Positions 34,932 to 38,155 of a stretch of 64,000 nucleotides of DNA are shown piece by piece. Origin of the DNA: Aromatoleum aromaticum EbN1 (lineage in GTDB: Bacteria > Pseudomonadota > Gammaproteobacteria > Burkholderiales > Rhodocyclaceae); contig NC_006513.1 in NCBI RefSeq assembly GCF_000025965.1, positions 2,852,001 through 2,916,000 on the forward strand, written 5' to 3'. The number at the start of each line of letters is the position of its first letter. The stretch's first letter is position 1. The position numbers and the translations under genes are program-made. The notes under the pieces are model-generated. The model worked only from the letters and a program-made list of their open reading frames with translations, was not told the DNA's origin and searched no databases.

Positions 34932-35729
34932 TCAGCCTGCCGGCGCGGCCGGCAGGACAACGAGGTCGCGATACGCGTGCCAGCTCGCGTGGCCGACGAT
35001 CGGCATCAGCACCACCAGTCCGAGATGGAAAGTCATGAATCCGATCACCGTGAGGCCGGCGATCATGAAAGCCCATACGATCATCGCGCCCGGGTTGCGC
35101 ATCAACGCCCCGACGCTCGTCAACATCGACGAAATCGCGTCCTGGTTGCGGTCGAGCATCAACGGCACGGAAATCACGCTGACGGCGAACACGATCGTCG
35201 CAAAGATCAGGCCGACGCCGAAATACACGAGCAGGAACTCGAGGTTGTCGAGGGCCAGCAACTGCGCCAGAAAGCCTGTCAGGTTCGGCATCTCGTTGGT
35301 GTAGAACAGCGCGAACACGACCATTGATGCGCGGGCCCAGACGAGGAACACGATGCCCAGCACGACGGCGAAAATGCCGATGTTGCCGGCGTTGCGCTTC
35401 CACACCGTCAGAGTCGGAAGGAGGGCGCAGGTCGCGCCTTGCTCGCGCCGCCGGCTGATCTCGTAGAGGCCCATCGCGAGAAACGGCCCGAGCAGGAGAA
35501 AGCCCGACGTGAGCGCGACCGTGTAGGCGTAAGCGTGCTCGAAAACCATCGTGACGAGCAATCCCATCGCGGCAAAGCAGAATCCGTAAAACAGGCTCGG
35601 TATCGGGCAGGCACGGAAATCCGCCCAGCCGCTCCTGATCCAGTGCAGCGGCGCACCCGCCCCGACGTCCCGGACAACGGGAAACACCCACTCCTCGGTT
35701 CCCAGCTTGACATCCTCCGGCTGCGACAT
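34932..35729 (-). CDS. DUF2189 integral membrane protein
   Basis: A 265-residue membrane protein with six or seven hydrophobic helices after a ~35-residue hydrophilic N-terminus (VFPVVRDVGAGAPLHWIRSGWADF). The pattern GPFLAMGLYEISRRREQG and the C-terminal LVVLMPIVGHASWHAYRDLV are typical of DUF2189, a family of unknown function in proteobacteria. The start has AGGAG eight bases upstream. It is the last gene of a minus-strand run behind the hydrolase. Confidence 0.85.
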   Translation of the reverse strand: MSQPEDVKLGTEEWVFPVVRDVGAGAPLHWIRSGWADFRACPIPSLFYGFCFAAMGLLVTMVFEHAYAYTVALTSGFLLLGPFLAMGLYEISRRREQGATCALLPTLTVWKRNAGNIGIFAVVLGIVFLVWARASMVVFALFYTNEMPNLTGFLAQLLALDNLEFLLVYFGVGLIFATIVFAVSVISVPLMLDRNQDAISSMLTSVGALMRNPGAMIVWAFMIAGLTVIGFMTFHLGLVVLMPIVGHASWHAYRDLVVLPAAPAG

Positions 35730-35792: not shown

Positions 35793-36635
35793 TCAGCGGC
35801 GGGTGAGGAAGCTCCGTATGGCATTGCCCACTGCATCGGGGGCCTCCGCCAGCATTGCGTGCCCGGCACGAGGAATGGATATCATACGTGCGCCGTCCGC
35901 TACCCCGGCAAGCGCTTCATGCAGGGGTTTGACTGCGCGCCTCGGAGTCATCTGGTCGCGATCGGCGCAGAGCAGCAGCGTCGGGCAGCGGACCGCCGCC
36001 GCAGCTGCGAGACCGTTTTCGTAGGCGTTGCAGGCGCCGAGGTCGATGGCCAGCACGCTGTCGCCCTGTCGTTCCATGAGGCGGCGATTCAGCCCCATGA
36101 GCGAGATTCCCGGCACGGCGCTCGCCCCGAGCTGCGACGCGAAAGTGTAGGACCACTGGTTGATCATCGCATGGGCCACGGCCCGGTCATCGTGCGCCGC
36201 GGACAGCAGCGGTGCGGCCACCGGCATCGGCGCGACGCTTCCGAGCAGAATCAGCTGCGTGATGCGGTCGGGGAACTGTGCCGCCGCCTGCAGCGCGACG
36301 AGCGATCCCATGCTGTGACCGGCGATGGCGGCACGCCGGACGCCGGCCGCATCGAGCAGCGTCGCGAGCCAGTCTGCGAGCGCTTCGATCGACGCGAGCG
36401 GGGCGCCGCCCGAGCGGCCATGTCCGGGAAGATCCGGGGCGAGCACCGAAAAGCCGTGGCGCGCGAGGTGGCGCGCCTGGAAGTTCCACACGCTGTGATC
36501 GTGAGCGGCGCCATGCAGCAGCACGACGACCGGCTGCGCGGGCGCGAAACTCTGCCCGCCGGTGTAGATGAAGACCGGGAGCCCGGATACCGTCAGCTGC
36601 ACCGCGCTACCCTCACGCCAGTCGGCCGGCGGCAT
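35793..36635 (-). CDS. Alpha/beta-fold hydrolase
   Basis: A 280-residue alpha/beta hydrolase. The oxyanion region VVLLHGAAHDHSVWNFQARHLA, the nucleophile elbow AGHSMGS (Ser near residue 108), an acid in CADRDQMTP and the catalytic His in PRAGHAMLAEAPD form a complete triad. There is no signal peptide. Its start overlaps the end of the preceding PLP-family gene by 23 bases, so the two are translationally linked. Substrate unknown; acyl-ester or thioester hydrolysis is possible. Confidence 0.85.
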   Translation of the reverse strand: MPPADWREGSAVQLTVSGLPVFIYTGGQSFAPAQPVVVLLHGAAHDHSVWNFQARHLARHGFSVLAPDLPGHGRSGGAPLASIEALADWLATLLDAAGVRRAAIAGHSMGSLVALQAAAQFPDRITQLILLGSVAPMPVAAPLLSAAHDDRAVAHAMINQWSYTFASQLGASAVPGISLMGLNRRLMERQGDSVLAIDLGACNAYENGLAAAAAVRCPTLLLCADRDQMTPRRAVKPLHEALAGVADGARMISIPRAGHAMLAEAPDAVGNAIRSFLTRR

Positions 36636-37911
36636 ACAGTCCGCGGTCCAGGTCTTCGATCAGGTTGTCGACGTGCTCGAGCCCCACCGACAGTCGCAGC
36701 GTGCCTTCGCCGATCCCGGCGGCAGCGAGTCCGCAGGCGGACAGGCGGGAATGGGTCGTGCTCGCCGGGTGGCTGACGAGCGACTTCGCCTCGCCGATGT
36801 TCGCCAGGTGCGAGAACACTTTCAGGCTCTCGATGAAGGCGCGCGCGGCTTCTCGCCCGCCGGTCAGTTCGAAGGACAGGATCGCTCCCGCGCCATCCGG
36901 CAGCAGGCGGCTCGCCAGTTCGTGATCGGGATGGGTCGCGAGCCCGGGATACGCGACGCGTGCGACGAGCGCTTGACGGGCAAGGTGGGCGGCCACGGCA
37001 CGCGTGTTCGCGACGTGCGCCCGCATCCGCAGCGGCAGCGTTTCGATGCCTTGGAGGATCTGGAATGCGTTCATCGGCGAGAGACAGGCGCCGAAGTCCG
37101 GCAGCGCTTCGCACCGCGCGCGCAGCAGGAAAGCCGCGACTGGAGACTCCTCGCCGAAATCCATGCCGAGAAAGCCGTCGTACGGCTCGGTCAGCGTCGG
37201 GAAGAGGCCCGACTGCTCCCAGTCGAACTGCCCGCCATCGACCAGCAGGCCGCCGACGGCGACGCCGTGGCCGCCGAGAAACTCGGTGGCCGAATGCAGG
37301 ACCAGGTCTGCGCCGAGCGACAACGGGCGCTGCAGGCAGGGTGTGGCCAGGGTCGCATCGACGAGCAGCGGGACGTGCCGGGCATGGGCGATTGTGGCGA
37401 CGGCGGGAATGTCGAGCACCTCGAGCCCGGGATTGCCGAGCGCCTCGCCGAACAGCAGACGGGTTTCGGGCCTGATCGCGTCGCGCCATTCGTCCGGACG
37501 GCGCGGATCGACGAAAGTCGTCCGGATACCGAAGCGCGGCAGCGTGTGGGCCAGCAGATTGCGCGCTGCACCGCCTAGCGCACGCGACGCGACGATATGA
37601 TGGCCGGCGCCCATCAGTGTCGCGATCGCGACATGCAGCGCAGCCTGGCCGCTCGCCAGCGCAATCGCCCCGATTCCCCCTTCCAGCGCCGAGACGCGCT
37701 CCTCGAGGACTGCGTTGGTCGGGTTCGAGACGCGCGTATCGACGTGTCCCGGGCGTTCATGGTTGAACAGCGCCGCAGCGTGCTCGGCATCCGGAAAGAC
37801 GTAGCCGGCGGTGAAATAGATCGGTGTCGCCCGGGCGCCGAAGGCCGGATCAGGGGACTGCCCTGCATGCAGGGCGAGCGTCTCGGGAGCAGGAGGTCCG
37901 TACTGGGTCAT
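36613..37911 (-). CDS. Cys/Met-metabolism PLP-family protein lacking the PLP lysine
   Basis: The 432-residue sequence matches O-acetylhomoserine sulfhydrylase-like enzymes over its whole length: TLALHAGQSPDPAFGARATPIYFTAGYVF, SNPTNAVLEERVSALEGG, ALASGQAAL, HPASTTHSRLS and LRLSVGLEHVDNLIEDLD. The Schiff-base Lys, expected in HSATKF, is Glu210 here (HSATEFLGGHG; codon GAG at 37282-37284). The Tyr of YxR is Asp58 (DTR), and the ring-stacking Tyr of LYGG is Leu112 (ALGG); Asp185 and the C-terminal Arg are kept. The frame is open and codon use looks ordinary, so it is not an obvious pseudogene. A non-catalytic or repurposed paralogue is the simplest reading. Overlaps the hydrolase gene. Confidence 0.85.
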   Translation of the reverse strand: MTQYGPPAPETLALHAGQSPDPAFGARATPIYFTAGYVFPDAEHAAALFNHERPGHVDTRVSNPTNAVLEERVSALEGGIGAIALASGQAALHVAIATLMGAGHHIVASRALGGAARNLLAHTLPRFGIRTTFVDPRRPDEWRDAIRPETRLLFGEALGNPGLEVLDIPAVATIAHARHVPLLVDATLATPCLQRPLSLGADLVLHSATEFLGGHGVAVGGLLVDGGQFDWEQSGLFPTLTEPYDGFLGMDFGEESPVAAFLLRARCEALPDFGACLSPMNAFQILQGIETLPLRMRAHVANTRAVAAHLARQALVARVAYPGLATHPDHELASRLLPDGAGAILSFELTGGREAARAFIESLKVFSHLANIGEAKSLVSHPASTTHSRLSACGLAAAGIGEGTLRLSVGLEHVDNLIEDLDRGLYAAGRLA

Positions 37912-37939: not shown

Positions 37940-38155
37940 TCAGGCCCGCTCGTCGGGTTCGAGCATGCGTTCGACGACGGCGATCCTGTCTTTCAGTGCG
38001 AGCTTGCGCTTCTTGAGGCGGCGCAACAGTAATTCGTCTTCCTGTGGCGAAGCATCGAGGTGGCTGATCGCCTCGTCGAGGTCACGATGCTCGGCCCTGA
38101 GTTCGGCCAGCCTCACCTGCAGGCTGGTAACGTCGTCGAATGCTTCCTCGCTCAT
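37940..38155 (-). CDS. YdcH-like (DUF465) small coiled-coil protein
   Basis: A 71-residue charged protein, almost wholly helical: SLQVRLAELRAEHRDLDEAI, then RRLKKRKLALKDRIAVVERML. This LK-K-K-LALKD pattern is typical of DUF465/YdcH (SlyX-like) proteins of unknown role. ATG 38155 has CAGG at good spacing. It sits 28 bases upstream of the PLP-family gene and may lead that operon. About 243 bases separate it from divergent mltB; nothing else was recognised in that gap. Confidence 0.85.
   Translation of the reverse strand: MSEEAFDDVTSLQVRLAELRAEHRDLDEAISHLDASPQEDELLLRRLKKRKLALKDRIAVVERMLEPDERA

Follow-up and report, generated by a model that had tools for sequence, protein, structure and literature searches.

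The window analysed here, which is the whole stretch of 64,000 nucleotides from Aromatoleum aromaticum EbN1 (C1:2852001-2916000), holds an intact open reading frame of 432 amino acids whose product looks like an O-acetylhomoserine sulfhydrylase, a pyridoxal phosphate (PLP) dependent enzyme, and has no catalytic Lys. The question raised by this locus is whether such a gene is an artefact, a copy in slow decay or a protein which is kept for something other than the chemistry of its family. On the sequence comparisons given below the last answer is favoured: the product is probably a PLP pseudoenzyme confined to one clade, which no longer carries out sulfhydrylase chemistry and is maintained by selection, most likely in the role of a non-catalytic partner or regulator, and a probability of about 0.62 is given to this reading. 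The positions of the gene, of its altered codons and of its neighbours are collected in Table 1.

Table 1. Features of the locus, with positions counted from the first letter of the window.
Feature	Position	Strand	Basis
Probable PLP pseudoenzyme of 432 aa from the O-acetylhomoserine sulfhydrylase family (NF006004/PRK08134), catalytic Lys absent	36613-37911	minus	Open frame, profile matches and alignment
Codon 58, GAT, Asp replacing the Tyr of YxR (neighbouring-subunit contact to PLP phosphate/ring)	37738-37740	minus	Alignment; role from the available parts of PMC10160035 and PMC7483736
Codon 113, GGC, Gly replacing the ring-stacking Tyr	37573-37575	minus	Alignment
Codon 210, GAG, Glu replacing the Schiff-base Lys (HSATK to HSATE)	37282-37284	minus	Lys in 137/137 others, Glu in 5/5 clade genomes
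Codon 271, CCG, Pro where all 137 other sequences have Arg	37099-37101	minus	Alignment; coordinates computed from the frame
Small charged 71-aa gene directly upstream	37940-38155	minus	In 18/20 fetched regions of relatives
Alpha/beta hydrolase, probably starting at a GTG (36602)	35793-36602	minus	Directly downstream in 21/21 genomes looked at
Integral membrane protein, probably DUF2189, encoded next after the hydrolase	34932-35729	minus	In 18/20 fetched regions; G012 orthologue matches PF09955

The affiliation of the protein is clear from the profiles. NF006004 (PRK08134, O-acetylhomoserine aminocarboxypropyltransferase) is matched over residues 1-430 with 760 bits, above its cut-off of 636, and Pfam PF01053 with 388.8, above its cut-off of 27, so the full-length homology to sulfhydrylases claimed in the preliminary description is borne out. 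An automatic annotation based on NF006004 would call the protein a homocysteine synthase because it passes the curated cut-off, and this name is very probably wrong. The AlphaFold2 model, built with 24 sequences, has a mean pLDDT of 80.9, with values below 50 in residues 1-21 and 24-61, and its top Foldseek matches in the PDB are O-acetylhomoserine sulfhydrylases and gamma-synthases (TM 0.86). The fold of the pseudoenzyme is predicted to be kept, while the state of the Asp58 arm, which lies within the low-confidence residues, is not readable from the model.

The residues were compared in an alignment of 143 sequences, in which six rows stand for five Aromatoleum genomes that form the clade described below (one genome was entered twice) and 137 rows for other sequences. 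The latter comprise 12 sequences from Aromatoleum, four from other genera (G017, G022, G024 and G040), 28 from a further contig collection and 93 from a family-level search, and some genomes come in through two collections. The family-level search covered 395 genomes and gave a match in 136, and the sequences of 113 of these were read, the remaining 23 not being fetched. The other sequences all have Lys210, Tyr58, Tyr113 and Arg271 (137/137), and these residues occur in 0/5 clade genomes; among the 77 positions which are invariant in those 137 sequences, exactly these four are altered in all five. The Schiff-base Lys of the HS(A/L)TK motif is Glu210 and the Tyr of YxR is Asp58 in every clade genome, and residue 113 is Cys in G011 and Gly in the other members. 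The preliminary description had read the codons of Glu210 and Asp58 correctly; it had taken Leu112 for the ring-stacking Tyr, but the Tyr aligns with Gly113, one residue later.

The meaning of these positions can be taken from related enzymes. In the human enzyme cystathionine gamma-lyase the residue that forms the aldimine is Lys212, Tyr114 is stacked against the ring, and the phosphate is reached by Tyr60 and Arg62 of the adjacent subunit, according to the available part of PMC10160035; in the L. plantarum enzyme Y97 and Y43, contributed by two neighbouring subunits, sandwich the PLP ring, according to the portion available of PMC7483736. By motif matching, K210, Y113 and Y58 correspond to that Lys and those sandwich Tyr residues, and both the Lys and the contacts on the two faces of the ring are gone. 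Judged by family chemistry, a protein without them should form no internal aldimine and carry out no gamma-replacement, and PLP would be bound poorly if at all. A loss of PLP chemistry in the pseudoenzyme is therefore strongly implied by its residues. The equivalent of Arg271 presumably takes part in the Cys116-Lys240-Asp241 network of methionine gamma-lyase.

Other parts of the site are retained. The phosphate cup and the Asp at the pyridine nitrogen (Gly88, Ser207, Thr209 and Asp185) are found in 5/5 clade genomes together with Q89, N160 and T187, and R60 in 4/5. Inside the clade H381 has become Asp in G007, H387 has become Leu in G008 and R60 has become Ser in G008; the 137 other sequences all have R60, and for H381 and H387 the only exception among them is one gap each. 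The earlier statement that substrate-side residues are kept thus stands for the protein of the window and fails for the clade, and no newly conserved pocket is visible, since R60, H381 and H387 are each lost in single species. In total 137 positions are conserved in the family, and 19 of them are altered in at least one clade member. Thirteen of the 137 vary within the clade against none in five Lys-bearing species, which are mostly less diverged from each other; conserved positions still vary less inside the clade than the rest (13/137 against 52/284, p 0.021). The enrichment of fixed changes in the active site is modest, with 3 of 12 contacts named in the available part of PMC10160035 and matched by motif, compared with 5 among the 125 conserved positions outside this set (p 0.023). 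With a longer list of contacts the figures are 4/15 against 4/122 (p 0.005).

The gene was found in 17/17 Aromatoleum genomes examined, and the form with Glu210, Asp58 and Gly or Cys113 occurs in five of them, namely G000 (the source genome), G006, G007, G008 and G011. Trees of four gene sets, which overlap, all separate these five from the 12 others with an ultrafast bootstrap of 100, and the hydrolase is adjacent throughout the five, so the conserved clade beside the same hydrolase that the preliminary description proposed to look for does exist. Because all other sequences examined carry Lys, the loss is derived and most simply a single event. A Lys in sister species had been named in advance as the mark of an error or a recent mutation; it is indeed present in the 12 other genomes, but it indicates a derived loss and not an error. 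A second NF006004-like group was seen just below the cut-off (579-622 bits) at G010:C96:19383-20648 and also in G020, G026, G034, G040, G017 and G030; this group, which occurs in several genomes of the order, is possibly a sister subfamily.

Canonical homologues exist in the same genomes. A second O-acetylhomoserine sulfhydrylase, here called OAHS2 (G000:C1:3735598-3736857), is 47% identical to the pseudoenzyme of its own genome and is present in 17/17 Aromatoleum genomes, with Lys and both Tyr residues in 17/17; a second, canonical metY or metZ, which the preliminary description proposed to look for, is thus present. MetZ has SATK in 15/15 genomes from which it was extracted, all five clade genomes included (G012 and G014 were not extracted), and a fourth homologue of the source genome lies at C1:2714859-2715998. 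With other homologues in the same cell, the sulfhydrylase activity of this gene could be spared.

Selection on the gene was analysed by a purpose-written branch codon model (GY-type, F3x4) with separate omegas for the crown of the clade, its stem and the rest of the tree. The estimates are 0.108 for the crown, 0.147 for the stem and 0.028 elsewhere. Equality of crown and rest is rejected with a 2dlnL of 41.7 (20.9 lnL units; the free fit and the crown = rest fit were repeated from new starts), neutrality of the crown with 147.8 (73.9 lnL units) and neutrality of the stem with 80.8 (40.4 lnL units). The crown omega stays within 0.101-0.121 on two other trees and on leaving out each clade member in turn, and in 20/20 data sets simulated under neutrality of the crown the estimate fell within 0.70-1.76. 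Pairwise dN/dS values are 0.154-0.205 inside the clade against a median of 0.062 among Lys-bearing Aromatoleum (G010 left out). At positions below 97% family conservation the crown omega is 0.147, and crown = 1 is again rejected (2dlnL 74.5). Control genes of the same genomes have no rise in the crown: the values are 0.013 against 0.022 elsewhere for OAHS2, 0.024 against 0.029 for metZ and 0.045 against 0.052 for the DUF2189 gene. Their stem values are weakly raised for metZ (0.063 against 0.029, 2dlnL 4.0) and OAHS2 (0.047 against 0.022, 2dlnL 3.5), which is at most a hint of co-evolution. The pseudoenzyme has been under selection since the loss, though less tightly; selection is about four-fold relaxed and not absent. 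The conserved catalytic residues of the family are missing and the gene is far from neutral, which are two of the marks of a pseudoenzyme.

The gene stands on one strand in the order 71-aa gene, pseudoenzyme, alpha/beta hydrolase and DUF2189 gene. The preliminary description regarded the hydrolase as translationally coupled to the pseudoenzyme, and coupling by overlap is not supported: the probable hydrolase start in the window is the GTG at 36600-36602, 10 nt after the TGA of the pseudoenzyme, the ATG at 36635 which overlaps this stop is not conserved, and in 10/17 Aromatoleum genomes, clade member G011 included, the overlapping frame is blocked by a stop that lies in frame shortly ahead of the shared start. 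A GGAGG precedes the shared start in G006, G007 and G008. The Ser, Asp and His motifs of the hydrolase are kept in 4/5 clade genomes. In G007 (G007:C4:1003042-1003853) the hydrolase is frameshifted near codon 244 and its His motif is lost, which is either a real loss or an assembly error. Codon fits of the hydrolase, for which the leading columns (stops before the true start) were dropped and the frameshifted tail of G007 was gapped, gave a slightly raised crown omega (0.139 against 0.078, 2dlnL 4.7) and a stem omega of 0.387, for which a value of 1 is weakly rejected (2dlnL 4.2).

The product of the small upstream gene looks like DUF465/YdcH. Regarding the two of the 20 fetched regions in which it was not seen, the contig of G003 ends close by and none was found in G040; the DUF2189 gene was not found in G022 and G040 among the same 20 regions. 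Genes for a greB-like protein and htpG adjoin the operon in the clade of the window and in the outgroups G010 and G022, and the regions fetched for the 11 remaining Lys-bearing Aromatoleum genomes did not show them. The flanks in G012 carry chemotaxis and NiFe-hydrogenase genes, and the neighbourhood there seems rearranged.

Several other explanations of the locus have to be weighed against these data. That the altered codons reflect a sequencing error or the mutation of one strain has a negligible probability and was rejected: Glu210, Asp58 and the loss of Tyr113 are common to five separate genomes and absent from 137/137 others, and therefore both origins are excluded. In addition, a 300-fold resequencing of EbN1 gave only five chromosomal variants in the available part of PMC9765128, none of them near C1:2889282-2889284 or within C1:2888613-2889911 if the coordinates match; a word search of the main text of that paper found no mention of homoserine, MetY or MetZ. 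It is also highly improbable that the frame is kept merely since its translation feeds the downstream hydrolase. The hydrolase start only 10 nt past the stop and the adjacency of the two genes in 21/21 genomes would suit such an arrangement, but it would hold the frame open and not the amino acids, which are constrained according to the omega values, and the gene overlap is not conserved; coupling alone was rejected on account of the constraint on the amino acids. Slow decay is a more serious candidate and still an unlikely one. A redundant enzyme may have lost its active site, with residual selection that merely avoids misfolding or is itself being lost, and several observations agree with this: omega in the clade is four-fold up, family-invariant residues are still changing in single species, the adjacent hydrolase has evolved faster on the stem as well and is frameshifted in G007, and the other homologues may make the gene dispensable. 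Decay of the pseudoenzyme gene is held unlikely because the dN/dS of the clade, although four times that of the Lys-bearing relatives, is far below 1; moreover no stop or frameshift occurs in the gene in any of the five clade genomes, and even the less conserved positions remain constrained, with neutrality of the crown rejected for them. The view of the preliminary description, that the pattern fits a pseudoenzyme or a repurposed enzyme and not decay, is upheld by the single clade of five genomes and by the rejection of neutrality in the codon models.

The pocket may instead have been repurposed as a ligand site, which would bind a PLP-amino acid aldimine, a free B6 vitamer or a cation (through the carboxylates of Asp58 and Glu210) and serve a sensor or a Lys-independent enzyme. 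The seven contacts to the PLP phosphate and pyridine nitrogen that are kept in all five genomes, with R60 in four, are in favour of this, as are the identity of Asp58 and Glu210 across the clade and the Lys-to-Ala variant of a related cystathionine gamma-lyase, which holds PLP as an external aldimine in crystals according to the available portion of PMC7483736. Against it, both Tyr residues that sandwich the ring are gone, single species have lost R60, H381 or H387, and the seven kept contacts are unremarkable when 19 of 137 conserved positions are altered in at least one clade member. A ligand site is rather unlikely, and a non-catalytic partner or regulator is preferred.

On the preferred reading, the ancestor of the five Aromatoleum genomes would have had a working PLP-dependent O-acetylhomoserine sulfhydrylase, which lost its Schiff-base Lys (now Glu210), both Tyr residues that sandwich the ring, of which the one contributed by the adjacent subunit is now Asp58 and the other Gly or Cys113, as well as the invariant Arg (now Pro271). 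The folded protein would have been kept for a non-catalytic role, and homocysteine synthesis would have been left to the other homologues. Most likely it would serve in assembly or regulation, as a subunit that joins either a Lys-bearing homologue or the alpha/beta hydrolase encoded beside it. That selection has retained the predicted fold suggests a role in contacts, and a partnership with a Lys-bearing homologue is plausible because subunits in this family contribute residues to the active sites of their neighbours; the hydrolase frameshift before the His in G007 weakens the role of hydrolase partner there. The complete proposal, in which a pseudo-sulfhydrylase arose in one genus as a regulatory or assembly subunit of a Lys-bearing homologue or of the hydrolase, with a PLP pocket that is now acidic (Asp58, Asp185 and Glu210), is tentative and open to considerable doubt.

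If the subunit reading is true, the locus represents a recent conversion of an enzyme into a pseudoenzyme that can be assigned to one branch, and the organism is open to genetics; an unmarked in-frame deletion is reported for EbN1 in PMC10715001. Nature has set up a clean experiment here, in which sister species carry, beside the same neighbours, versions of one enzyme about 80% identical, some active-looking and others dead. The loss falls on one branch only, and selection still acts on the dead version. The pair lets one ask what a PLP-fold protein does after its chemistry goes and how the residues are lost. Among the literature matches listed, as far as titles and the starts of abstracts go and with subscription papers outside the scope, there was no report of a Lys-less pseudoenzyme of the Cys/Met family or of this gene.

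The closest known systems are the enzymes of its own family. The NF006004 enzymes of the 12 other Aromatoleum genomes are 78-82% identical to the pseudoenzyme and have the same gene order with the hydrolase. The protein matches NF006004, within the wider TIGR01326 and PF01053, over its full length, but it is without the Lys, the two Tyr residues that sandwich PLP and the Arg271 of all 137 other sequences. The solved O-acetylhomoserine sulfhydrylases 4kam (Mycobacterium marinum MetC), 7kb0 (Thermotoga MetY) and 8wko (L. plantarum) have the fold that is predicted for the pseudoenzyme, with 44-47% identity in structural alignments and full-length sequence matches; their alignments show SATK, YTR and LYGG, and the pseudoenzyme differs at these places. 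The likeness to the deoxyhypusine synthase of trypanosomatids, where a dead paralogue activates the enzyme according to the available part of PMC3663545, is that an active homologue is accompanied by a family member which has been retained despite the loss of its catalytic residues. That system is eukaryotic and not a PLP enzyme. Another dead paralogue that activates an enzyme is LCB1 of serine palmitoyltransferase, which is also eukaryotic. The ColD-type PLP sugar dehydratases are likewise of fold type I and without the catalytic Lys; in them a His acts instead and the binding of PLP/PMP is kept, whereas here Glu replaces the Lys and both Tyr residues that hold the ring are gone.
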